IMG/VR virus record: IMGVR_UViG_3300046535_001273
Span: 1-36,631 of that record
Reading direction: 5' to 3' (one strand)
From: a virus
Length of the DNA: 36,631 nt
Shown: positions 5,594 through 36,515 of the stretch, in pieces
How positions within the stretch are numbered: the stretch's first letter is position 1
Layout of the letters: each line of letters opens with the position of its first letter
Position numbers and translations under genes: made by a program
The notes under the pieces: model-generated
Told to the model about the DNA's origin: nothing
What the model saw: only the letters and a program-made list of their open reading frames with translations
Database searches by the model: none

Positions 5594-5910
5594 ACGGGCC
5601 ACATTTTGTCTATCGTTATTTCGGCACACAAGACGAGGTTTTGTACATTGGTGTGACAAAGAATCCGCGCCAACGATTCTCTGAGCATGCTCGCACGCCC
5701 TGGGGGAGGGAGAAAGAGCGCATCACCACGGTTGCGTTCGCCATCCGTGAGGATGCAGAGCGAGAGGAGCGACGTGCTATCGCTGAGGAGCATCCAAAAT
5801 ATAATCAATGGTGTAATCCCGGTTATACCTGGGAAACAGATTTCAGGCGCGAGCACCGCGCCGGCGAGGGCAGACCGGGCCGGCGCACAAAACCACAGGA
5901 GCCAAAGTGA
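5590..5910 (+). CDS. GIY-YIG endonuclease domain protein (106 aa)
   Basis: The ATG overlaps the preceding stop (ATGA). It is a stand-alone GIY-YIG domain: FVYRYF (motif 1), LYIGVTKNPRQRFSEH (motif 2 with the conserved Arg and His), then a helix with AEREERRAIAEEHPKYN containing the Glu and the PxYN ending. Such proteins cut DNA as homing, repair or host-DNA-degrading nucleases. No DNA-binding domain is attached, so the target is unknown. Confidence 0.85.
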   Translation: MNGPHFVYRYFGTQDEVLYIGVTKNPRQRFSEHARTPWGREKERITTVAFAIREDAEREERRAIAEEHPKYNQWCNPGYTWETDFRREHRAGEGRPGRRTKPQEPK

Positions 5911-6125
5911 AACCAGCGACGGGAACTGAACTGCCACCACGCACGTTCGCATGCCGTCGGCCAGAGGGGAGCCGCTACTACTCGCTGCGCATCTCCGCGG
6001 GCGGTCACCATATCCAGACGGTGGTCCTCACTGCTGAGGAAGTGCGTTCCTGCGCAGAGACGCTGCTGGGGGCGCTCGGCTGGACGCTCATGCCTGCGCA
6101 CCCCAACCCACCGGAGCCGCAATGA
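5907..6125 (+). CDS. Small hypothetical protein (72 aa)
   Basis: The GTG start overlaps the TGA of the nuclease gene. Strands YYSLRISAGGHHIQTVVLTAEEVRSCAETLL suggest a small beta-beta-alpha protein. No family is recognised. Tight overlaps on both sides support a coupled gene. Confidence 0.55.
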   Translation: MKPATGTELPPRTFACRRPEGSRYYSLRISAGGHHIQTVVLTAEEVRSCAETLLGALGWTLMPAHPNPPEPQ

Positions 6126-6403
6126 TCGCACTCGCCGCCCTGACCGCCATCCTCCAGCGCCACGATCCTGCCCATGTCGCCTGGGTCGGTGACGATGAAT
6201 ACGACATCGAGTCCATCGCGATTCTCGAACGCCTCAGCGACACGATGGAGGCTCCCGAGGTGGCGGCGTTGGTGCATGACGTGTTTGTGCGGACGTTTCA
6301 TCCATCGATGGTGCCAGCGGCGGATGATGCGCTGTGGCGGGAGATCGCGGGGGAGATTATGGGCTTTATCGGCGATAACCACGACCGCACCGGTGCCCGG
6401 TGA
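6122..6403 (+). CDS. Hypothetical protein (93 aa)
   Basis: The ATG overlaps the previous stop (ATGA). Acidic and helical, with WVGDDEYDIESIAILERLSD and VHDVFVRTFHP segments; no family is recognised. Its 3' end overlaps the opposite-strand XRE remnant (6298-6582), suggesting that a rearrangement joined the two. Confidence 0.55.
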   Translation: MIALAALTAILQRHDPAHVAWVGDDEYDIESIAILERLSDTMEAPEVAALVHDVFVRTFHPSMVPAADDALWREIAGEIMGFIGDNHDRTGAR

Positions 6404-6582
6404 CAATGCGGAGTGGCGGAGAGCGCGTGGTCCTCGGGCTTGCTCGTGCCGCGCATCCACTTACTGACGCTCGCGCCCTTCAGTGTGCCGCCGGACGCAC
6501 GCACAAAATCGGCTTGTTTCCAACCTCGCTCGTGCAGTCGATCCCGTAACCAGAGTTCAAAAGGTTGCACCGTTGCTTGCAC
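6298..6582 (-). pseudogene. Remnant of an XRE-type repressor gene
   Basis: Read leftwards, the frame gives FELWLRDRLHERGWKQADF ... SVSKWMRGTSKPED, a clear XRE helix-turn-helix with its recognition helix. The helices that should follow are missing; instead the frame runs on as unrelated sequence and stops inside the coding region of the plus-strand gene 6122-6403. GTG 6582, preceded by a G-rich run, is the likeliest start, and an ATG at about 6650 is also in frame. It faces the intact XRE gene at 6680, as a cI gene faces cro, so I read it as the decayed half of a lysogeny switch. A very short functional protein cannot be excluded. Confidence 0.45.
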
Positions 6583-24649: not shown

Positions 24650-27600
24650 GTGGCCACGAGCCTTGGAAATCTGTCCATCGGGCTCTCAATCGGTGGCCTC
24701 GATCAGTTGGCGAATCTCGAGAACCGCCTCAATGCGCTCAACCGGATGCGCATCAACGTCGATACGTCTGCCGCGACACGCAACATCCAGGACGTCGGCA
24801 CGGCGGCAGACAAAACGGCGCGATCCCTGGAAGGGATGGCAGTCGCGGCCACCGCGGCAAAGGCGGCGGTGCTTGCGGTCGGCGTTGGCTTCGCTGCGGC
24901 GATCAAGTCTTCACTTGATTTCAATGCGTCGCTCGAGCAGAACACCGTCGCCTTCACGACGATGCTCGGTTCCGCACAGCAGGCCGCGTCCTTCCTCAAG
25001 CAGTTGCAGCAGTTCGCCGTCTCGACGCCCTTCACCTTCCCGCAGCTCGAGACCGCGTCGAAACAGATGCTGGCGTTGGGATTCAGCGCCCAGCAGATCA
25101 TCCCGATGCTCACCGATGTTGGCAATGCCGTCTCCGCGCTCGGTGGCGGCAGTGAGGTGATGAACCGCATCATCCTCGCGCTCGGGCAGATGCAGGCAAA
25201 GGGGCACGTCGCCGCGCAGGAGATGAATCAACTCGCCGAGGCGGGCATCCCGGCGTGGAAGATTCTCAGCGAGACCTTAGGTGTCACACAGGCACAGGCG
25301 CAGAAACTGGCGGAGTCCGGGCAGGTGTCGGCGAAGGTCTTCCTCGACGCCTTCCAGCAGTTCAGCAAGGCCAACTATGGCGGCCTGATGGACGCGCAGA
25401 GTAAGACCTTCCTCGGCGCGCTCTCGAATATCAAGGACGGCGTCCAGCAGTTCCTCGGCACCGCGATGCAACCCCTGTTCGAAGTCGTCCGCAACATTGC
25501 CGTGCGCCTCGGTGACCTCGCGTCGAACGGCCAGTTGCAACGGTGGGCGCTCCAGGCGCAACAGGTCGTGCGCGCCCTCATCAGCACGATGGGCGAACTG
25601 CTCGCGGTCATCGGCACGGTCGCACGCGGCATCGCCTCCGTCTTTGGCATCACCCTGCCATCGTTCAGTATCGGCGGCGCCGCCGCGACCGCTGCTGCAC
25701 CGCATGTCGCGGCGGCGGCGCCCGCGAGTACGGCCGCGACCGCGACGAATGCGGGCCAGGCGGACGCCGCGACGGCCGCGCAGCAAAACCTCGACGCGGT
25801 CAAGGGGCAGTTAGACGACCTGCGGGACAAGCAGGACGCCCTGAACGACAGCATCAAGGACACGAAGCAGCACTACGAGGACCTGATCGCGCCCGTGCAG
25901 CGACAGTTGGATGTGGTCAACAAACTCAGCGATGCCGAGAAGGCACGGCAGGTGCGACTCGACGAACTGACGGGCCAGGAAATCCAGATCAAACTGGCGA
26001 TTCCGTACGACCAGATTGCCACGCTCGACGGGCAAATCAACGAGCTCAAGCGGAAGAAAGAAGACCTCGGGCGCTTTGACGCCAGCGGCTACGATAACCT
26101 CATCCGACCCCTGCAAGCCCAAAGCGAAGCCTACAGTAAGACCATCCAGGGCATCCAGGAACAGATCGCCGCTATCGGGCAGGATCACTCGCTCGAACGG
26201 CGCATCCAGGACTTGCAGCAGATCCTCGGCGCCCCGGCGGTCGATACGCACGGATTCTCGAATCAACTGATCGGCATCCAGGCGCAGCAAGTGGCGGGTG
26301 GCAACGCGGGCGCGCTCGACGCGCAGCGCCGCGCGGTGTCGCTCCAGATGCAGGCGGCGGTCCAGGGTGACCTTGACAAGCGCTCGGCCGCGCAGACCGA
26401 GTTGCAGCAGTTGCAGGAGCGGAAGATCCTTCAAGACCGGATGGATCAGGATCACAAGGACGCGCTCGATCAACAGATCAAGGCGCAGGAGAAGCAGAAG
26501 GCCGCAGTCGACGAGCAGGCAAAGGTCTGGGAGCAGGCAAAACAGGACGCGCAGGCAGCCTTCCAGGCACAGGGACAGGCGATTGACGACCAGATCACGA
26601 AGCTGAGCCGACAGAAGGACGACCTGCTCGCGCCCTCGCAGGCAGCACTCGCTCAGGTGGACGCGGAGAAGAACATCCTCTCGCTGCAACAGCAGCAGGA
26701 CGACCTCCGGCGCAAGATGCTGGCGCAACCGCTCAAGGATCAAATCGACGCGATCAAGCAGGCCGAGCAGGACGCGCTCGACCCGCTGACGAAGCAAACC
26801 GCCGAGTATGAGAAGCAGCAACACGCGCTCGATGCCCAGGAGCGTTCGCTGCAAAAGATCGCGGCCGGCATCAAGAAGGGCGCGGACGCGGGCGGTGGTG
26901 GCGGCGGGGCGGCGGCCGACACGACACCGTTCCCGACGCTTGCGGATGTGGCGCCGGGGACCAACAAGGTTGCCGAGGCGATCGACAACGTCAACAACAA
27001 ACTGAAAGAGTTCGAGCAGTGGTGGAAGGATCACGTGACGCCGGCCTTGCAGGAGGCCCATCGCGTCCTCGTCGCAGACGTCATTCCCGCGCTCGGCCAC
27101 CTGAAGGACGCGCTCGGCGAGGCGAAGGACGCGCTCAAGGATGTCTATGACTGGCTGCAACCAAAGCTGGTCGCTGCCTTCGATGCCGTGACCGACGCGG
27201 GCAAGCGCCTGACGGACTGGTTGGGGCAGATCTTCAACCCGCTTTTGGGGGACGCGAAGAAGATCCTCGACAGCCTGATGCCCGTCCTTCAGGACCTCTC
27301 GCCACTCGTCGGCACGCAACTGAAAACGGACTTCTTTGAACTCGAGATCGTGATGACGCCCGTCGAGGTCACCCTGAAAGAGATCGGCTTCTACGCGGAC
27401 ACGGTGCTCAAACCGATCCTTGTCGGGTTGTCGGACATGATCAGCAACCAGCTGAGCGCGAACCTCACGGCGCTTCACCTGCTGCTCACGAACTTTGTCA
27501 ACCCGGCGCTCAACACGGTGGGCGATACCATCACGAAGACGGTGACCCCAGCAGTGGAGGACATCGCCACGAAGATCGATACGTTCACGACGAAACTTGG

Positions 27601-28921
27601 TGACCTGAAGAACTGGGTGGAACAGAACTGGGCTGACGTTGGCACGAAGCTGGCCGCGCCATTCACGAGCGCATGGGACAAGATCAAAGAGTTTTTCGGC
27701 AACCTGTATACCGGCGTCAAGTGGCTCGCCGATCATTTCGGGCTCTCGGCGCCGGCGGCGCCATCGTTCCTCAGTGCGGACAACGGCCAGTCGTCGGGCG
27801 GCTCGGCGGGGAGCTTCGCTCCGGCTCCGGGCGGTGGTGGTGGCACGGGGAAGGCGGCGAACGGGCTCCTCAACGCCGCCGAAGGGCACTGGTCATGGGT
27901 CGGCGAAGAAGGCCCGGAGATGATGTATGTGCCCAAGGGCTCAAGCATCCTCCCCAACCGGCTGTCAAAGGCGATGGCGGGCCATGCCGATGGCTTCAAC
28001 GTCGACGCCATTTTCAACCCACTGGGCGCGGTGGTGGCGGGCACGGCGGGGAAGTTTGTTGATGCGTTGATGGACAAACTTCCCGGCGTCGACCTTCCGG
28101 GAGTGGCGGGCGGCGGCGCGGCCATGCTCAAGGAGATCGCCACCGGACTCAAGGGGTGGCTCGCCAATGCCCCCGGCAATATCGCGCAACAAGTGACGGC
28201 GGGCGTGACGGGCGCAATGTTGAGCCCACCGATGGCGGGCGCGTTCACGCCCGGACAGGGCAACTGGCACAATCCCGTACCGGGCATCCGTGCGGTACAA
28301 GGATCCTGGACGCACGGTGGCACCCACGACCACGAGGCAGCAGTGGACTGGGCCGCGCCCTACGGCACCAGCATCCTGGCGCCGGACAGCGGCAGCGCCT
28401 ACACCGTGTGGAATGGCGATGGCCAAACGGGTCGCACGGGCGTCATCGATCACGGCAATGGTTGGCTCACCTACTACGGCCACGTGAGTGACTTCGCCAA
28501 CGGCGCATTCAATCAAGACGCGGTCGTCGGCCACACGGGCAGCCCCGAGCGCGATGGTGGCGCGGGCAGTGGCGCGCACTTGCACTTCGCGATGCGCCTC
28601 AATGGCGCGTATGAGCGTCCTGAGGACTACATCCCCGGCATCTTCGGACTGGCGGGCGGCGGCATCTCGATCGGCGGCCAGTCGCGCCTCGTCATGGTCG
28701 GTGACGGGCCAACGGGGCAGCGCGAGTTCCATACACCGGAGCCCGATTTGCGGCAGATCGTCCGCGACGAGTCCAGTGCGATGCAGATCGAATCGGGCGC
28801 ATTCACGTTCCACATCCATCCCACACCCGGCATGTCCGAGGAGCGCGTGGCGGAACTGGCGGCCGAAGCCGTCCATGACGTGATGATTCGTGGTCCGCAG
28901 CAGCGGGGGAGGGCGGCCTGA
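24650..28921 (+). CDS. Tape measure protein with M23 peptidase domain (1423 aa)
   Basis: GTG start at 24650. Residues about 84-260 match the conserved tape-measure domain (FNASLEQNTVAFTTMLGSAQ, STPFTFPQLETASKQMLALG, AAQEMNQLAEAGIPAWKILS). A hydrophobic stretch lies at 60-82. Long coiled coils rich in Gln/Asp/Lys fill about 370-780. Residues about 1204-1325 are an M23/LytM peptidase: THDHEAAVDWA gives the first His and Asp, and GAHLHFAM the HxH. It sets tail length and probably cuts peptidoglycan during DNA entry. Its length predicts a tail of roughly 200 nm by the usual 1.5 angstrom per residue rule (inference). Confidence 0.93.
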   Translation: MATSLGNLSIGLSIGGLDQLANLENRLNALNRMRINVDTSAATRNIQDVGTAADKTARSLEGMAVAATAAKAAVLAVGVGFAAAIKSSLDFNASLEQNTVAFTTMLGSAQQAASFLKQLQQFAVSTPFTFPQLETASKQMLALGFSAQQIIPMLTDVGNAVSALGGGSEVMNRIILALGQMQAKGHVAAQEMNQLAEAGIPAWKILSETLGVTQAQAQKLAESGQVSAKVFLDAFQQFSKANYGGLMDAQSKTFLGALSNIKDGVQQFLGTAMQPLFEVVRNIAVRLGDLASNGQLQRWALQAQQVVRALISTMGELLAVIGTVARGIASVFGITLPSFSIGGAAATAAAPHVAAAAPASTAATATNAGQADAATAAQQNLDAVKGQLDDLRDKQDALNDSIKDTKQHYEDLIAPVQRQLDVVNKLSDAEKARQVRLDELTGQEIQIKLAIPYDQIATLDGQINELKRKKEDLGRFDASGYDNLIRPLQAQSEAYSKTIQGIQEQIAAIGQDHSLERRIQDLQQILGAPAVDTHGFSNQLIGIQAQQVAGGNAGALDAQRRAVSLQMQAAVQGDLDKRSAAQTELQQLQERKILQDRMDQDHKDALDQQIKAQEKQKAAVDEQAKVWEQAKQDAQAAFQAQGQAIDDQITKLSRQKDDLLAPSQAALAQVDAEKNILSLQQQQDDLRRKMLAQPLKDQIDAIKQAEQDALDPLTKQTAEYEKQQHALDAQERSLQKIAAGIKKGADAGGGGGGAAADTTPFPTLADVAPGTNKVAEAIDNVNNKLKEFEQWWKDHVTPALQEAHRVLVADVIPALGHLKDALGEAKDALKDVYDWLQPKLVAAFDAVTDAGKRLTDWLGQIFNPLLGDAKKILDSLMPVLQDLSPLVGTQLKTDFFELEIVMTPVEVTLKEIGFYADTVLKPILVGLSDMISNQLSANLTALHLLLTNFVNPALNTVGDTITKTVTPAVEDIATKIDTFTTKLGDLKNWVEQNWADVGTKLAAPFTSAWDKIKEFFGNLYTGVKWLADHFGLSAPAAPSFLSADNGQSSGGSAGSFAPAPGGGGGTGKAANGLLNAAEGHWSWVGEEGPEMMYVPKGSSILPNRLSKAMAGHADGFNVDAIFNPLGAVVAGTAGKFVDALMDKLPGVDLPGVAGGGAAMLKEIATGLKGWLANAPGNIAQQVTAGVTGAMLSPPMAGAFTPGQGNWHNPVPGIRAVQGSWTHGGTHDHEAAVDWAAPYGTSILAPDSGSAYTVWNGDGQTGRTGVIDHGNGWLTYYGHVSDFANGAFNQDAVVGHTGSPERDGGAGSGAHLHFAMRLNGAYERPEDYIPGIFGLAGGGISIGGQSRLVMVGDGPTGQREFHTPEPDLRQIVRDESSAMQIESGAFTFHIHPTPGMSEERVAELAAEAVHDVMIRGPQQRGRAA

Positions 28922-30366
28922 TGAGTTTGACCTTCCCCGCCACCATCAGCTCCTCGACGCCCGATCAGTTGCGCTACGTCCGTGATGTCGCCACCGGTAC
29001 CACGCTCTATACCTTCGAGGGGGGCGAGTACGATCTTGACCTCTCGTTCGTCCGGCCGACGCAGTCGTTCCTCTTGCCCGGCAGTGACGCTCCGTACGAT
29101 CCCTTCGGCAGCGGTGGCTTCCCGCTCGATAAGCGGACGGTGCAACTGAAGTGGCTCAAACGGTACCGGGTCGGCGAGACGCACAGCAGTAACCGGATTG
29201 CGTTCCACCGCGCCATCGCCGACGGCCGACAGGTGCAACTCGTCCTGCTCGACAGTGGTGGGGCGGAGTGGATCGGACTCGCCAAAGCCACGAGTGTCCC
29301 GACACAGATTCAACCGGAAACCATGTTCAAGATGGACATGGGCGTCACGTTTGAACTGAACCCGCCCGTGTTCCGCCAACTCTATCCCCCCGGCTGGTTC
29401 TACTGGGACGCGCCCGGTATTTACTGGGACGGAGGCGTTGTCGGCTCCGTGACGATCAACACTCCCGGCGCGTACACCGTGGCTCCGACCGGCGTGACCT
29501 TCACCGGGACCACGGGTTCCGCGGCGCGTGGCGTCTTGTCATTTAGTGGCGCGGTGCCCCATGCGGGCGTGGCGAGCGTGACGATGCTCGACGCCGGCCT
29601 GTACAGCACGGCGCCGACGGGCGTGAGTTTCATTGGCGGCACCGGCACTGCCGCCACGGGGACGGTGCAAACAAGCGGCGTGTCGCCCAACATCACCGTC
29701 ACGGGCGTGACGATCACGAGCGCGGGTGATTACACAAATCCACCCGAAACCATTGCCTTCACGGGCGGCGTGCTCACGAACCGCGAAGGATCCGCTGCCA
29801 CGGGCACCGTGCAGACCGGCGGCATCGCGCCGAACATCCAGGTCACCGGTGTCACCATCACCGCGGGTGGTCTCGACTATGGCGCGGCGCCCGCGATCGC
29901 CTTCACGGGCGGCACGGGGACGGCGGCGACCGCGACGGCAACCATGGCGGCGGGCGGTGACGGCTTCCTCTGGGACTCCAATACGCTCCCGACGATCGTG
30001 CTCACGGCGGCGAGCCAGTCGCTCGTCTTCACCAATGCCGGTGATGCGCCCGAGCACGCCGCGACGATCACCGTGCGTGGCGCGTATCCCCCGTTTGACC
30101 TGCTCGTCTACGACGCTGGCGGCACGTTGCGCGGCTGGGTGACGTGGGCGGCGGGTCTGACGTCCGCGGATGTGCTGGTGATGAACAACGCCACCGGGCA
30201 AGTCACCCTCAATGGTGTGGCGGCATTTGATCCGGTGCGGTTTGTCTATCGGGGTGATAACTTCTTCGCCTTCTGGCCGGGCAACAGCACGCTCGTCGTC
30301 CAGACCGGATACAGCGGCAGTGCGACCGGGGCGCTGACGGTTGACGCGCGTAGCGCAAGGTATTGA
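28921..30366 (+). CDS. Distal tail (Dit-like) protein with beta repeats (481 aa)
   Basis: The ATG overlaps the tape measure stop. Residues 1-155 are Dit-like (YTFEGGEYDLDLSFVRPTQSFLLPG, SSNRIAFHRAIADGRQVQLVLLD, MDMGVTFELNPPVFRQ). A repeat region follows (about 175-345) with units such as VTITSAGDYTNPPETIAFTGG and AAPAIAFTGGTGTAATATAT, then a C-terminal beta domain. The same repeat type occurs in the tail glycosidase protein. The stop codon lies within the left arm of H5. Confidence 0.78.
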   Translation: MSLTFPATISSSTPDQLRYVRDVATGTTLYTFEGGEYDLDLSFVRPTQSFLLPGSDAPYDPFGSGGFPLDKRTVQLKWLKRYRVGETHSSNRIAFHRAIADGRQVQLVLLDSGGAEWIGLAKATSVPTQIQPETMFKMDMGVTFELNPPVFRQLYPPGWFYWDAPGIYWDGGVVGSVTINTPGAYTVAPTGVTFTGTTGSAARGVLSFSGAVPHAGVASVTMLDAGLYSTAPTGVSFIGGTGTAATGTVQTSGVSPNITVTGVTITSAGDYTNPPETIAFTGGVLTNREGSAATGTVQTGGIAPNIQVTGVTITAGGLDYGAAPAIAFTGGTGTAATATATMAAGGDGFLWDSNTLPTIVLTAASQSLVFTNAGDAPEHAATITVRGAYPPFDLLVYDAGGTLRGWVTWAAGLTSADVLVMNNATGQVTLNGVAAFDPVRFVYRGDNFFAFWPGNSTLVVQTGYSGSATGALTVDARSARY

Positions 30367-30419
30367 AGAAGCGTTTGCACGAGAGCGTGCAGTGCGCTTC
30401 GCGGCAAACGCTTCTTCAA
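30363..30419 (-). repeat. Hairpin element H5
   Basis: The outer arms TTGAAGAAGCGTTTGC (30363-30378) and 30404-30419 pair perfectly over 16 bp. In H1 orientation (minus strand) the 25-nt centre reads C-GCGA-A, GCG, loop CACTGCA, CGC, T-C-TCGT. The inner pairing GTGT/ACAT of the other copies is changed on both sides and kept. It overlaps the end of the Dit gene and lies just before the ribosome site of the fibre gene. Confidence 0.9.
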
Positions 30420-30434
30420 AAGGCGGTATACACT

Positions 30435-32357
30435 ATGACCCAGATCGTGGTTGCCAACCATATCGCCTACCACTCGCTTGGTTCCAGTTCGGCGCTGAAC
30501 GCCATCGTGGACGACCTCGCGGCGAAGGTGACGCAGCACACCCAGCAGGCGGATTACCTGCACCCTGACTTCACGAATGCCACCGCGATCTCCAACCCGT
30601 CGAGCCCGGGCGCCTTGTCTCTGGTCCGCCGTGACGTGAACGGGCAGGCGGGTTTTGTCGGTCTGACCGTCAGTCCCGGTGCGAACAGTAACGGCCTGCT
30701 CATCCAACTGCCCGCCGGCGTCCAGGTACCCGCCTACGCCGTCTTGACGATCCTGAAAAATGGTGGCGGGCTCGCGGCTTCCTTCGATCAGTACGGATCG
30801 CTGCTTGCCGCCAATGGTCTTTTTACGGGCAATGACACGGCGGGTGCGACGAATGCGCTCGGCGTCCGCTCCTCCGCAGCGCCCGCTGGCGATATTTTCT
30901 ATGTGGGCGACAACGGTGGCACGGCGGCGAACCGCTACCTCCGTGTCAACAGCAGCGGGCAAGTCGTCGGGCGACTGGGATGGTATGTCGGGCTGGTGGG
31001 GAGTGAACTGCTGGCCGTGGATGCCAACGGCAACATCCTCAACCGCCGCAGCCACCGCGAGTTTACCGTCACGCTTTCCCCGACCGCGCTCAGCGCGACG
31101 ATCGCCGCCGGGAACTACGTAGACATCAACGGCCTCGGCGTCAAACAATCCCTCCAAACCGTCACCCCAACGAGTCACGCAACCCTGTGGGTCTGGTGGA
31201 CGCTCTCCTATGGGATTGGTGGCACCGTCCACTTCACGGCCAATACTGCGGGCGGCAATGTGACGCAAGGGAGCGCCACAAAGGCGAACTTCCCCACCGG
31301 TGACTTACCGATTGGCTACATCCAGGTGCCGCCGAATGTGACGACGCTGGCGAACGCGGTGTTTGACGACTGGCGCGGCATGCAGACGGGCGACGGCAAC
31401 AGCGGCGCGGGCGGCGGCATGGCGACGACCGTCAGCGTCATCACCGACGTGGACGAGAGCGGCACGGAGGTGAACAGCAAGCAGCTGGCGAGCGTGGCGG
31501 CGGGGCTGAAGACGGTGGCGGGGCCGCCCGGCCTGACGGCGGCGGCGACGCTCGCGCAGCACATCCGCTCATCATTCACGGATGCCACCCACTACGACGC
31601 CGGGCTCGCGGATCGCATGACCGCCGACTTCGCGCCCTATCTGTGCGCCGAGATCACGAACAGCACGAGCACGATGAGCGTTGCGTCGAGCAGTGCCTTC
31701 CCCGGCTGGATCTCGATGGGAGGACGCTGGCGCACCAACACCGGCACACTCATCAGTCCGAGCGCCACCGGATCGGGCACGGGCGTCAAGTACCTGATCG
31801 CCGACCTGACCGTCGCGGGGCCGGGTTACGCACTCCTGATGTCCAACACCAACAGCCCGAGCGCCTTCCAGCGCACCCTCGCTTCGCAGTATTTCATCGA
31901 CGGCACGGGCTTTCAGGGGGTGCCGGACACCTCATGGCTCCAGCACATGTCCTATGGCCAGTACACGCCCCGCCTGCTGACCAGCGCGACCAATCCGAGC
32001 GCGCTCGGGGCATCGCTCCTCGCCGGGCTGACGGGCGGCCCGAGCGTCACGGTTGATGTCGGGGCGGCGAGCCTCGCCTCGTTCAAGTGGACGGTCAGCC
32101 ACAACGGCAGCGCCATCGGGCGGACGCAGTTCCAACTGATCGCGAGCGCCAACGGCGGCCCGTACAGCGCCATCTATCCCTATAGCGAGATCGAGTACCT
32201 GACCAGCGGGCAGGTCAACCGGGGCACGGCGAGCAACTCCCTCGATGTGACGCTGGCGGCGGGGCGTACCATCTTCCAGCTCGGCGGTGTCGCCGTCAGC
32301 GGCACGGGCGTCACGCCGAACGCCGCCTATCTCTTCATCACCGTCTTCGGCAGTTAG
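30435..32357 (+). CDS. Tail fibre / receptor-binding-like protein (640 aa)
   Basis: ATG 30435 follows AAGGCGG; a longer frame from TTG 30363 would begin inside H5 and is less likely. The N-terminus (HSLGSSSALNAIVDDLAAKVTQHTQQADYLHPDF) is helical and could trimerise. The middle has fibre-like beta sequence (GLTVSPGANSNGLLIQLP, FYVGDNGGTAANRYLRVNSSGQV), and the C-terminus is Gly/Ser/Thr-rich beta sequence. This is typical of host-recognition proteins; specificity cannot be inferred. Confidence 0.7.
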   Translation: MTQIVVANHIAYHSLGSSSALNAIVDDLAAKVTQHTQQADYLHPDFTNATAISNPSSPGALSLVRRDVNGQAGFVGLTVSPGANSNGLLIQLPAGVQVPAYAVLTILKNGGGLAASFDQYGSLLAANGLFTGNDTAGATNALGVRSSAAPAGDIFYVGDNGGTAANRYLRVNSSGQVVGRLGWYVGLVGSELLAVDANGNILNRRSHREFTVTLSPTALSATIAAGNYVDINGLGVKQSLQTVTPTSHATLWVWWTLSYGIGGTVHFTANTAGGNVTQGSATKANFPTGDLPIGYIQVPPNVTTLANAVFDDWRGMQTGDGNSGAGGGMATTVSVITDVDESGTEVNSKQLASVAAGLKTVAGPPGLTAAATLAQHIRSSFTDATHYDAGLADRMTADFAPYLCAEITNSTSTMSVASSSAFPGWISMGGRWRTNTGTLISPSATGSGTGVKYLIADLTVAGPGYALLMSNTNSPSAFQRTLASQYFIDGTGFQGVPDTSWLQHMSYGQYTPRLLTSATNPSALGASLLAGLTGGPSVTVDVGAASLASFKWTVSHNGSAIGRTQFQLIASANGGPYSAIYPYSEIEYLTSGQVNRGTASNSLDVTLAAGRTIFQLGGVAVSGTGVTPNAAYLFITVFGS

Positions 32358-32366
32358 CGGGACGGG

Positions 32367-32636
32367 CTATGGCGCGTACGCCTGCGTGATGGCGGCACGG
32401 AAGAGACCGAGGAGCGCGCGGTCATCATTGGTCACGGCGTGTTGCGCCAGGCGTTCCGCGCCCCGTTCGAGCGCATCGAGCATCACGGGCGCCGCCGCCA
32501 TCAGCACGGCCAGTTTGCGTGAGGCGGCCGGATCATAGCGCCCTGTCACGCCAGCGAGCGCGATCTTGTTGCCCTGTCCATCGAGGATGTCGATGTTTTG
32601 CCCGCCCTCACGGGGGCGAATCGTCCATGTCTCCAC
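32367..32636 (-). CDS. Small opposite-strand gene in the tail module (89 aa)
   Basis: GTG 32636, preceded by GAGGAG on the minus strand. The pattern ETWTIRPREGGQNIDILDGQ ... RKLAVLMAAAPVMLDALERGAERL matches a common small phage protein whose LMAAAPxxLxALE helix recurs in many genomes; its role is unknown. It ends 10 bases from the fibre gene stop, convergent with it. The only opposite-strand gene among the late genes, it looks like a moron insertion. No clear promoter is visible. Confidence 0.75.
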   Translation of the reverse strand: METWTIRPREGGQNIDILDGQGNKIALAGVTGRYDPAASRKLAVLMAAAPVMLDALERGAERLAQHAVTNDDRALLGLFRAAITQAYAP

Positions 32637-32699
32637 CGCGTTGCTCCTCTCGTGCCATCAACGTACCGCGCCACTGTATACCGCCCCGGGGGTTTTGTC

Positions 32700-32852
32700 A
32701 TGGACGAACAGCAGCCCGCCACTCCCATCGAAGAAACGCCCGCTGTCACCGTGACGATCGTCGCCGCGCTCGGCACGGGCATGGTGGCGGTGGTCGCGGA
32801 TCGCGGCGCCACCGCCACAACCCGCATCGAAATCACGGCAGGTAGCCGATGA
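32700..32852 (+). CDS. Small hypothetical protein (50 aa)
   Basis: ATG 32700, seven bases after GGGGG. The N-terminus is acidic (MDEQQPATPIEETP), then a hydrophobic strand-like stretch VTVTIVAALGTGMVAVVA. Its stop overlaps the next start (ATGA), so it is probably coupled to the glycosidase-like tail protein. Confidence 0.6.
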   Translation: MDEQQPATPIEETPAVTVTIVAALGTGMVAVVADRGATATTRIEITAGSR

Positions 32853-35800
32853 GTGCCATCGAATACGGGGCGCTGATCGGCTATTCCCCGAACCCCGGCC
32901 CGGCTGTCCCCACGAACGAAACCCTCGCCAACTTCAAGGCAAGTGTCGATGATGTCGTCTCGCGCGGTATCCGGTGGATCCGGCTCGGTCCCACCGAGGA
33001 CATCGCCAACCGCATCCTGAGCACGCCGACCAACATCGTTTGGGACACGGCGTACCAGGCGCAGATTGATGCCGCCGTTGACTACGCGCTGGCGAAGGGC
33101 CTGCGGATCGATTTCTTCATGCCGCTGCCAATCTCGTGGACGACCGGGCTGAGTCAGGCCGATTTCCTGACGATGACCGACAACTACGCGGGCGGTCTTG
33201 CCCAGCACTATGCCGGGAAAGTCTCGCTGTGGACCGTCAATAACGAGGGGAATATTGGCGATTATCGCGGCCTCGGGCGCAGCACGACAACCGCGGGCTA
33301 CCGGAGTGAGTTGGCAACGGTGCTCGCGCGTGCCCGCACCGCGATCCGCCTGTCGGATACCGCGCCGGTCACCCATGATGTCGCGTCCTCGGGTCCGGGA
33401 TCGCTCGACGATACCTCCTACACGGCACTGACCACCTTCCTCGACGTCATTGCGCCATCGATCGACGCGCTCGCACTCCATAACTACACCCTTGGCACGG
33501 CCACGGCCCTGATCAATGCGCTGCCGGGGTATCTCAGCAATCTGCAAGTCCGGTACAACCTGCCCCTGTACATCACCGAGTGCGGCGCGTTCTCGTTTGT
33601 GGCCGGCCAACCCGCATACACGGAGCAACTGCAAGCCGACTCCCTCACGGCCATGCTCCGCGCGTTCCAGCAAGCGTCGCCCCCTCCGGTCGCGATCATC
33701 CTCTACCGCCTCAAAGACCCCACTGCGGGGATTCTCTCGGTGACGCTGACCGATCAAGGGTTGTACGGCTCACCGCCGACCGGGGTCACGTTTTCGGGTG
33801 GCACCGGAGCGGGCGCGACGGGTGGCGGCACCGCCACCATCTCGACGGTGTTCAATGGCTCAACCGGCTACATCGTCACCGGGATTGCGTTGACGAATCC
33901 CGGCATGTACGCCACGCGACCGACCGTGACGTTTACCGGCGGCACGATTGGGGCGGGCCACGCGGCCGTTGCTGGCGCGAATCTCAACAACGAATACCTC
34001 GGCATCGAGAATCCGGATGGCACGACAAAACTTGGCTATCCGGCGTTCTTCGCCGCGATGGTGCCGCTCAGTACCGCGCAGCAGTATCGGCCTTATGCAC
34101 GGCCCTATTTGGTATTGTTGGATGCACAGGGCAACCGCCCCGCCGTGCTCAATGGCATCAGTCTCGATTCCGCGCTCAAGGGCGTCACGAACCTCCGCTA
34201 CACGCCCGAGGGTGGGGTGCTCGATAAACTGGGCGCGATCGCATTTGATGCGCCGGCGACGGCACCGATCAATCGCGCCATCACGCCCGGTACCCAACTG
34301 CAAGTCTATGACCCGACCGTCTTGGGACTGAATAACGCGCCGACGGTGGTGGCGTGGGGCATCTACCGGACCGGCTCGCGCACCCTGAATCGTTCGGGAA
34401 CGATGGCGACCTTCACGTTTGACGATCTCCTGCAGGAGCTCGCGCAACGCTCCGCGACCACCGGGTTTGCGACGGCCGCCGATGCAACGGGCGCTGCCAC
34501 CGAGGGCACGACCGCGATTCTCAACCGGTTGGTGTACCTGAACGTCGATACCACGTGGGCGGTGACGAATGATGTCACGGGGCTGGACGGACTCGCCTTC
34601 AGCGCGATGGGCGCCTCCATCTTTGGTGCGGCGACGAAACTCGCCAGTGAGCGGTTCGCGCATGTGAAGCGCGGCATGGCGCGGACACTGAAGTTCGGCC
34701 GGTTCGGACAACCGAGCGGCATCACGTTCCGCAAGGCCGGTGGCTCGCCGACCGCAGCGGCGAGCGATTTGACGACACGGCAGATTCCCGATGGCGGCCT
34801 GAAGTCCTCGATCGAGGCGGCGCTGGTCAATGACATCGTGCCGTTAGGTGGCGATACGGGTGTCCTGCAAGTCTCACTCCAGCCGCTCTATAACGGCAAT
34901 GGGGAAATCAATCTCGGGAACTTCTTCCCCGCGGTGGCGGGCTGGTATCAGAGCGGCCCCGTCTCGTTCACCGGCTACGATCCCGCCTATCCCCTCTACC
35001 GGCGTCCGCGTGCGGATGGCGGCGGCATTGATGGCTACGAGTACCTGATTGCCGATAGTCCGTCGATTAGCGCCTATGGCCGCCATCAAGCGCCGTTCGT
35101 GAAGTCGGACATTGTGCCGGTGAAGAATGCCGCTGGCGGCGTCTCCCCCGCCGACCGGATTGCCGCCGCCACCGTCCTCTATCAGGTCGGGGTGTCGTTT
35201 CTGAAGTGGAACGCGCAGCCGCACGAAACGATCGCCATCACGGTCCCGGCAGCGGGCGATCTGCGCGACATCGCGGGCAAGACGGCGACGGTCTGGTACA
35301 GCGATACGACCCAGGGGCTGGCGTATGACGGGACGCAGCAGTGGGTGGTGATGGAGGTGAGTCGCGCCGTCGCGAATCAACCGATGGACACGTTCACGCT
35401 CTCCTCGTCGGGCACCTACGCGCAAGAACCCGCGGCGGTGTTCAACGGGATCGTGACAGGGCTCACGAACCTGCAACTGAACCCCGTCTCCACCCGGACG
35501 CCGTACCCGGTGATCGTCTCGGATAACTGTGACAATGGCTTTCCGATCGCCGCGCCCATCCGTGGGAATACGGGCGTGCAGGGCATCCTGACCGCACGGG
35601 CGTGGCTGACGCCCTCGGCGCTCAGGACGGAAGCGACACCGGATGTGCATTCGCACGTCATCAATCCGATTGCCCATGACGTGAATCAATTGACGGTCGG
35701 CGCGACGACACGCAGCACAACCTCCGCAGCAGGCGGCTTCGTCTACAATGCGGCGGCGAGACTCGCGATCCGGCAGATCGGGAGCGCGGCGGGTCTGTAC

Positions 35801-36259
35801 CAACTCTACGAGTCGCACAGCGGCGACGACGGCTGGCTCTGGGCGGTCGGCGGCTACGACAAGGACATGCCCGTCAGCGGTCTGACGCTCTCGGTGGACA
35901 ATACGACACATTCCCACGGTATCCCCGCCCTGACGGTGACGGGCAGCACGACCCAGACCTCCGGTGGCACGGGTGGCGCGACGAAGGCCGTCACCGATCC
36001 AAACATGCTCGATCCCAAAGCAGGCATGAAGCACCAGATGTTTCCGAACGGATCTGTTCCCACCGGGCTCACCATCTGGTTCGATGGCGTCCAGGTGGCG
36101 GGGCCGGTGAATGGACCGCTCACCGTTGATCTCTATAGCTACTTCGCGGCGAGCCCGCAGGCGAATCACACCGTGGAAGGGCGGTGCGCGTCGTTGGGGC
36201 ATCTGACGCTTGAGGTGGTCGTCGAGCGCTACCAGTCGAGTATCGCTACCGGGCGGTAA
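32849..36259 (+). CDS. Tail protein with N-terminal glycosidase-like (clan GH-A) domain (1136 aa)
   Basis: Residues about 1-295 look like a TIM-barrel glycosidase: RGIRWIRLGPTEDI, VDYALAKGLRIDFFMP, Glu133 in WTVNNEGN as acid/base and Glu244 in YITECGAF as nucleophile, 111 residues apart as in clan GH-A. Residues about 304-380 hold beta repeats like those of the Dit protein (LYGSPPTGVTFSGGTGAGAT, MYATRPTVTFTGGTIGAG). The remaining 750 residues include tail-hub-like regions (RPYLVLLDAQGNRPAVLNGI, NRSGTMATFTFDDLLQEL), and near the C-terminus His-rich motifs (DVHSHVINP, TTHSHGIPA). It may degrade surface polysaccharide at the tail tip. Confidence 0.75.
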   Translation: MSAIEYGALIGYSPNPGPAVPTNETLANFKASVDDVVSRGIRWIRLGPTEDIANRILSTPTNIVWDTAYQAQIDAAVDYALAKGLRIDFFMPLPISWTTGLSQADFLTMTDNYAGGLAQHYAGKVSLWTVNNEGNIGDYRGLGRSTTTAGYRSELATVLARARTAIRLSDTAPVTHDVASSGPGSLDDTSYTALTTFLDVIAPSIDALALHNYTLGTATALINALPGYLSNLQVRYNLPLYITECGAFSFVAGQPAYTEQLQADSLTAMLRAFQQASPPPVAIILYRLKDPTAGILSVTLTDQGLYGSPPTGVTFSGGTGAGATGGGTATISTVFNGSTGYIVTGIALTNPGMYATRPTVTFTGGTIGAGHAAVAGANLNNEYLGIENPDGTTKLGYPAFFAAMVPLSTAQQYRPYARPYLVLLDAQGNRPAVLNGISLDSALKGVTNLRYTPEGGVLDKLGAIAFDAPATAPINRAITPGTQLQVYDPTVLGLNNAPTVVAWGIYRTGSRTLNRSGTMATFTFDDLLQELAQRSATTGFATAADATGAATEGTTAILNRLVYLNVDTTWAVTNDVTGLDGLAFSAMGASIFGAATKLASERFAHVKRGMARTLKFGRFGQPSGITFRKAGGSPTAAASDLTTRQIPDGGLKSSIEAALVNDIVPLGGDTGVLQVSLQPLYNGNGEINLGNFFPAVAGWYQSGPVSFTGYDPAYPLYRRPRADGGGIDGYEYLIADSPSISAYGRHQAPFVKSDIVPVKNAAGGVSPADRIAAATVLYQVGVSFLKWNAQPHETIAITVPAAGDLRDIAGKTATVWYSDTTQGLAYDGTQQWVVMEVSRAVANQPMDTFTLSSSGTYAQEPAAVFNGIVTGLTNLQLNPVSTRTPYPVIVSDNCDNGFPIAAPIRGNTGVQGILTARAWLTPSALRTEATPDVHSHVINPIAHDVNQLTVGATTRSTTSAAGGFVYNAAARLAIRQIGSAAGLYQLYESHSGDDGWLWAVGGYDKDMPVSGLTLSVDNTTHSHGIPALTVTGSTTQTSGGTGGATKAVTDPNMLDPKAGMKHQMFPNGSVPTGLTIWFDGVQVAGPVNGPLTVDLYSYFAASPQANHTVEGRCASLGHLTLEVVVERYQSSIATGR

Positions 36260-36269
36260 GGGTCGTGCA

Positions 36270-36515
36270 ATGTTCGATCGCAACACGCTGCTCTCGTTCA
36301 TCGTCTCGCTTCCCGGCATTGCGGCGTTCCTGTGGTTGTGGCGAACAACGGTGAGCAATGAGCGACGCCGGCGGCATGACCGCGACCTCATCACCCGTGC
36401 ATCGCGTCGGGTGAACTCGCATGAACGTTCCATCGCGAAGATCGAGGGGCGCGAGGTGGCCTTGCTCCACCCGTTGTATGACGACCAGGACGAGGAAGAG
36501 GAGCCATTTGATTAG
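36270..36515 (+). CDS. Small membrane protein, possible holin component (81 aa)
   Basis: ATG 36270. One hydrophobic segment (about 7-25, LLSFIVSLPGIAAFLWLW), then a basic region (NERRRRHDRDLITRASRRV), a short helix and an acidic tail (DDQDEEEEPFD). One membrane segment and a charged tail, just before another small membrane gene and the endolysin across the window junction, suggests a holin pair. Family not recognised. Confidence 0.65.
   Translation: MFDRNTLLSFIVSLPGIAAFLWLWRTTVSNERRRRHDRDLITRASRRVNSHERSIAKIEGREVALLHPLYDDQDEEEEPFD

Follow-up and report, generated by a model that had tools for sequence, protein, structure and literature searches.

The tail-tip protein and its predicted N-terminal barrel

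The window analyzed here is the whole of a 36,631-base virus record, IMG/VR IMGVR_UViG_3300046535_001273, which represents a bacterial virus seen in environmental DNA only. It carries a siphophage-like run of tail genes, in which the tape measure gene is followed by a Dit-like gene, a gene for a 664-residue protein, and a gene for a tail-tip protein. The tip protein gene is an open reading frame (ORF) on the + strand at 32849-36259 with an ATG start and encodes 1136 residues, as a preliminary description of this DNA had stated. At moderate confidence, the N-terminus of the tip protein is predicted to fold as a TIM barrel resembling clan GH-A of the glycoside hydrolases (GH), and this barrel is fused in frame to a core that is probably the tail hub. 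The parts of the protein and its neighbours are listed in Table 1.

The fold was predicted by AlphaFold2 from residues 1-410, with a two-sequence alignment whose second sequence was the homologue from a related viral contig, G013. The model has a mean predicted local distance difference test score (pLDDT) of 50 and a predicted template modelling score (pTM) of 0.55, and the blocks 101-130, 151-180, and 191-210 have pLDDT values of 71-89. Strands at residues 43-46, 86-92, 127-131, 174-179, 207-212, 240-245, and 286-288 alternate with helices. Strand 1 (about residues 5-12) was not resolved in the model, and strand 8 was modelled at low confidence. When strand 1 is counted in, Glu133 comes after strand 4 (127-131), with Asn132 immediately before it at the strand end, and Glu244 lies within strand 7 (240-245). 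In clan GH-A, the acid/base Glu follows strand 4 and the nucleophile Glu is at strand 7. The preliminary description had proposed this very assignment for Glu133 in NNEGN and Glu244 in TECGAF; both motifs were confirmed from the translation, and the model places the pair accordingly at moderate confidence.

Structural comparisons pointed to glycosidases. A Foldseek search of the PDB with the barrel model gave 553 matches at E<=0.001, and all of the 50 best listed are glycosidases, presumably of families GH1, GH10, GH53, GH113, and similar ones. The best VIA-align match had a Z of 20.2 (3.8 Å over 278 residues), and Z was at least 8 in 997 of 998 chains; the matches listed are beta-glycosidases whose titles suggest GH1, although other families may also be represented. 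In a viral structure library, 12 matches were found at E<=0.001, three of which are phage glycoside or glycosyl hydrolases by name, and the rest are partly without informative names.

The sequence evidence for a particular GH family is weak, too thin to name one. The best family match was Pfam PF11790 (Glyco_hydro_cc), covering residues 190-275, which scored 21.3 bits when residues 1-290 were cut out and 22.1 bits with a shorter stretch (cut-off, 21). A phmmer search of PDB sequences gave a weak match to a xylanase (GH10; E 0.42), whose NE aligned to Glu133. A two-sequence profile placed Glu133 and Glu244 on the NEQN and ITEN of a GH1 enzyme, again weakly (whole-sequence E 0.052; single stretches only E 130 and 4.4). 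The preliminary description had suggested structure prediction and comparison with GH5 and GH39. The prediction did give a glycosidase-type barrel, but no GH5 or GH39 match was listed in Pfam at E<=10, in a search whose filters drop weak matches. PslG, which I take to be a GH39 enzyme, was among the PDB sequence matches with an E of 2.2.

Module borders and inserted segments

With the window insert left out, the barrels of the window and G013 agree in 109 of 308 aligned columns (35% identity). Among the positions that G013 shares are N132-E133-G134-N135, T243-E244, and the GDYRG run. Behind the insert, the window (residues 377-412 were used) matches residues 375-397 of G013 with a score that was reached by 3 of 1000 shuffles. 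In contrast, the score of the same stretch against five barrel-less proteins was reached by 277 to 991 of 1000 shuffles. Thus, the module comprises approximately residues 1-292 and 379-405. A TIM-barrel-like region within residues 1-300 had been proposed before; the predicted fold agrees with this, but the domain reaches to about residue 405 and is interrupted by the insert.

The insert is similar to a repeat in the Dit-like protein of the same phage (41% identity over 83 columns, E 7e-7). By pattern, at least three units of this beta-repeat were seen in the Dit-like protein (29449-29955). The phage thus carries this repeat in two of its tail proteins. A match of residues 292-394 to phrog_460 ("head closure") was set aside; it covers the inserted repeat and also matches the Dit-like protein. 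The insert lies near the poorly modelled strand 8, where G013 has none. Instead, G013 carries an additional segment of about 70 residues behind the strand-3 position, and no other copy of this segment was found among the 52 sequences compared. In TIM barrels, the loops after the strands form the catalytic face, and therefore the inserts of the window and G013 may shape substrate binding.

Table 1. Parts of the tail-tip protein gene and the tail genes upstream of it
Feature	Position	Strand	Basis
GH-A-like barrel, residues 1-292, first part of module (predicted)	32849..33724	+	AlphaFold2 model, Foldseek, VIA-align, homologue in G013
Glu133 codon, predicted acid/base after strand 4	33245..33247	+	AlphaFold2; kept in G013
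Glu244 codon, predicted nucleophile in strand 7	33578..33580	+	AlphaFold2; kept in G013
Beta-repeat insert, two units, about residues 293-378	33725..33982	+	Similarity to Dit-like protein; not at this place in G013
End of GH module, about residues 379-405	33983..34063	+	Matches G013 residues 375-397
Tail-tip core, probable hub, residues 418-879	34100..35485	+	26-28% identity to proteins of G005, G006, L044, and L046
C-terminal part, residues 880-1136	35486..36256	+	Read from sequence
Tape measure protein with M23 peptidase domain	24650..28921	+	TMP_3 8.2e-31; Peptidase_M23 3e-12
Dit-like protein with beta-repeat copies	28921..30366	+	SPP1_Dit E 0.0015, below cut-off
664-residue protein between the Dit-like and tip proteins, perhaps fibre-like by position	30363..32357	+	

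Distribution of the barrel among relatives

Is the barrel common among related phages? Relatives were reached only via the portal protein (19 IMG/VR loci), the Dit-like protein (one more), and a scan with the core alignment. The 20 portal and Dit-like records were searched with the 1136-residue protein at E<=10; many of them are short fragments, so that misses mean little. Five of the 20 matched, one of them (G014) through the repeat only. The core-alignment scan gave four loci, two of which were new (contigs L044 and L046). In summary, six relatives hold the core: G005, G006, G012, G013, L044, and L046. The barrel is present in G013 and absent from the other five, and four of these five barrel-less proteins align from the barrel end onward. 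Residue 417 of the window protein is where the first Met of the G005, L044, and L046 proteins is aligned. The G006 ORF has a Met aligned there too, as its residue 78, and the Arg-rich residues preceding it are probably non-coding. The G012 protein (957 residues) matches residues 511-1474 of the 1479-residue G013 protein at 28% identity, and G013 has an IPT/TIG domain at residues 400-482 (E 2e-10). Thus, the G013 protein is a G012-like protein fronted by a barrel and an IPT/TIG domain. Since the barrel is missing from the core proteins of five relatives, it is an optional N-terminal module.

The core of the window is nearest to the G005 group and that of G013 is nearest to G012; the barrel is nonetheless common to the window and G013. 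The 664-residue neighbour is also nearest to its G013 counterpart (48% identity over 534 columns), and therefore the barrel may have travelled as part of a larger tip block. Alternatively, the barrel may have been lost by descendants of a common ancestor.

The portal proteins of G005, G006, G012, and G013 are 87%, 83%, 94%, and 93% identical to that of the window, although the last two values come from short stretches only. The tail tips diverge far more than the portals. The endolysin-like proteins of G005, G006, and G013 are 91%, 86%, and 43% identical to that of the window. Contig L022 matches the window at 99.7-99.9% identity in the tape measure protein and in residues 1-333 of the Dit-like protein, where the contig ends; thus, the phage recurs, and the fusion is still from one contig.

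No match was found by tblastn in 50,697 phage records with the whole protein (E<=1e-5) or with residues 1-290 (E<=10), nor by blastn with 28921-36259. Residues 401-1136 as a query gave 14 records (best E 0.3), and the L044 core gave three phage records at E 0.8-0.9, with none for the G013 protein. A plasmid search gave three records at E 0.1-0.8, two of which are Streptomyces glycosyl hydrolases. Pattern scans, which require near-exact short stretches and are therefore weak as negatives, found no relatives of the tip protein or the 664-residue neighbour with single proteins; G013 alone among viral contigs and no genome contig with the alignment of the two barrels; and G013 alone with the DNA pattern NEGN-x-GDYRG.

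Proposed function and rival explanations

I estimate a probability of about 0.6 that the approximately 405 N-terminal residues, which continue in frame into the probable hub core, form a glycosidase module of the clan GH-A type that works as a retaining beta-glycosidase cutting a host surface glycan. By analogy with clan GH-A, Glu133 would donate a proton and Glu244 would form the glycosyl-enzyme. The enzyme would be carried at the tail tip, probably in three copies, and while the phage attaches it would cut the capsule, exopolysaccharide, or wall glycan of the host. The insert near strand 8 may lie on the catalytic face and may help hold the glycan. The module is optional, as relatives lack the barrel and some have an SGNH esterase gene beside the core.

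Several observations weigh against this proposal. The pLDDT is low at both Glu blocks (40 for residues 131-140 and 47 for 241-250) and below 50 at all residues from 282 on. The viral structure library also yields TIM barrels other than glycosidases at weaker E-values, such as methylenetetrahydrofolate reductase; thus, the fold alone is not proof of function. With the whole protein, Glyco_hydro_cc stays below its cut-off at 18.6 bits, and the G013 barrel reaches no GH family cut-off in Pfam. At the position of His211, G013 has Asp. One barrel homologue is known, and the fusion has been seen on a single contig. As for the core, the AlphaFold2 model of residues 405-874 from five sequences was uninformative (pLDDT 35.6), Foldseek with this low-confidence model found no match at E<=0.001, and hhalign gave a probability below 1% for each of 38 proteins from four annotated phages.

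The main rival is that the barrel is a glycosidase-derived adhesin which grips host sugar and no longer cuts it. Receptor binding is a common role of tail tips, and the active-site neighbour His211 is not kept in G013, which would suit such an adhesin. A TIM barrel at the tip of the R. capsulatus gene transfer agent (RcGTA) is also without demonstrated activity (PMC13420450). On the other hand, the sole homologue, at 35% identity, retains both predicted catalytic Glu residues as well as Asn132, which makes the adhesin unlikely in my view.

It would also be somewhat surprising if the core were a fibre or spike, with the enzyme on a side appendage, although the core model and the hhalign result are in its favour and no hub family reached its cut-off. 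Searching the PHROGs, Pfam, and PDB profiles with the core brought up weak, unhelpful matches only. However, the tip gene lies behind the tape measure and Dit-like genes, with one gene intervening after the latter, and TIGR01665 was found in two of the five core sequences (best E 0.03, below cut-off; the core of the window itself had no match). The folded core alignment comprised five sequences, with G012 and G013 left out (when G013 was included, the N-terminal part did not align). The gene order and the sub-threshold TIGR01665 matches suggest that the core is probably the hub. The protein had previously been called a tail hub protein; it is better described as a tail-tip protein led by a separate module, whose hub identity I infer from these two lines.

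The remaining alternative, that the glycosidase targets a glycan of the wall (peptidoglycan-linked or secondary) and aids penetration rather than acting on capsule or exopolysaccharide, would fit the M23 peptidase domain, another wall enzyme, in the tape measure protein, but it is improbable, with no muralytic enzyme among the matched structures listed by Foldseek and VIA-align.

Comparison with known tail-tip proteins

The closest precedent is the megatron (Rcc01698) of RcGTA. A TIM barrel at the periphery of this protein sticks out of the baseplate, and its function is described as unknown in PMC13420450 and PMC8601537; the peripheral domain spans residues 230-744, according to PMC7296036. 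Both proteins have a TIM barrel as part of a large tail-tip protein, but the megatron barrel is internal, behind the iris and adhesin-like domains, whereas the window barrel starts at about residue 5. No match to the GTA TIM family of Pfam was listed for the window barrel at E<=10. The RcGTA tailspike TspA (PMC13420450) is likewise a virion-borne baseplate enzyme and degrades biofilm. It is a separate, detachable tailspike, whereas the window enzyme would be fused to the tip core.

Proteins of Pseudomonas phage POR1, Lactobacillus phage Bacchae, and an uncultured Caudovirales phage, annotated as GH5 or glycosyl hydrolase, have predicted structures that match the barrel (E 4.1e-7, 9.3e-7, and 1.1e-7, respectively), although they are only 13-19% identical to it. 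Jersey gp32 is a gpJ-like hub with an extra N-terminal globular domain; unlike the window module, that domain is small and without known fold or enzyme match (PMC13243795). Among open-access papers, none was found that joins tail, virion, or hub with TIM barrel or GH5.

Other features of the locus

The C-terminal part of the tip protein had no family match. It contains HxH motifs (HSH twice; 35486-36256), and similar motifs occur in the C-terminal parts of the G012 and G013 proteins. The 664-residue protein had no Pfam family at cut-off, and a Glyco_hydro_123_N_2 match in it (E 0.014, below cut-off) was set aside. An 89-residue ORF on the - strand (32367-32636) lies between the genes for the 664-residue and tip proteins and resembles a real small protein, and a 50-residue ORF with an ATG (32700-32852) shares four bases with the beginning of the tip gene; neither has a Pfam match. 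A 108-residue ORF (32519-32845), which is Arg-rich and without matches, was judged not to be a gene. On the 3′ side of the tip gene is an 81-residue ORF with a hydrophobic start (36270-36515). The gene labelled endolysin-like is located at 681-2012 and matches glucosaminidase with an E of 0.0032, which falls short of the cut-off. A stretch similar to its product was found inside the tape measure proteins of four relatives (L039:10509-15581, L038:9229-14271, L041:3366-8408, and L040:7102-10368) at 30-34% identity (E 1e-12 to 2e-14).

A possible swap site before the tip core

In three of the six core-bearing relatives, a separate SGNH/GDSL hydrolase gene (PF13472) is next upstream of the core gene (E 5.9e-12 in G005, 2.4e-15 in G012, and 9.8e-13 in L044). 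The same position is occupied by a 472-residue ORF in G006 and a 153-residue ORF in L046, both without Pfam hits. These relatives with an esterase gene instead of the barrel, as well as the domain end and the inserted repeat, go beyond the preliminary description. In L044, a DNA methylase gene (5806-6564; PF01555, E 1.2e-33) was seen with a fibre-like gene on one side and the SGNH gene on the other.

A tentative idea, which I hold to be less likely than not, is that glycan-modifying enzymes are exchanged in this phage group at the site preceding the tip core, either as a fused GH-A glycosidase or as a free SGNH esterase. The barrel would be varied further by beta-rich phage segments in different loops (near strand 8 in the window and after strand 3 in G013), both of which would sit on the catalytic face. 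If this is true, these phages would change at two levels which host sugar coat they can breach, with the portal and lysis genes nearly constant.

Glycan enzymes carried by virions are mostly known from tailspikes or fibres. In this phage, the enzyme seems to be joined directly to the front end of the tail-tip core. Relatives whose portals are 83-94% identical in the parts compared differ in just this part, which offers a natural comparison for whether enzymes mounted on the tip set host range. The window also makes tail-tip TIM barrels open to experiment; in gene transfer agents, their function is described as unknown.

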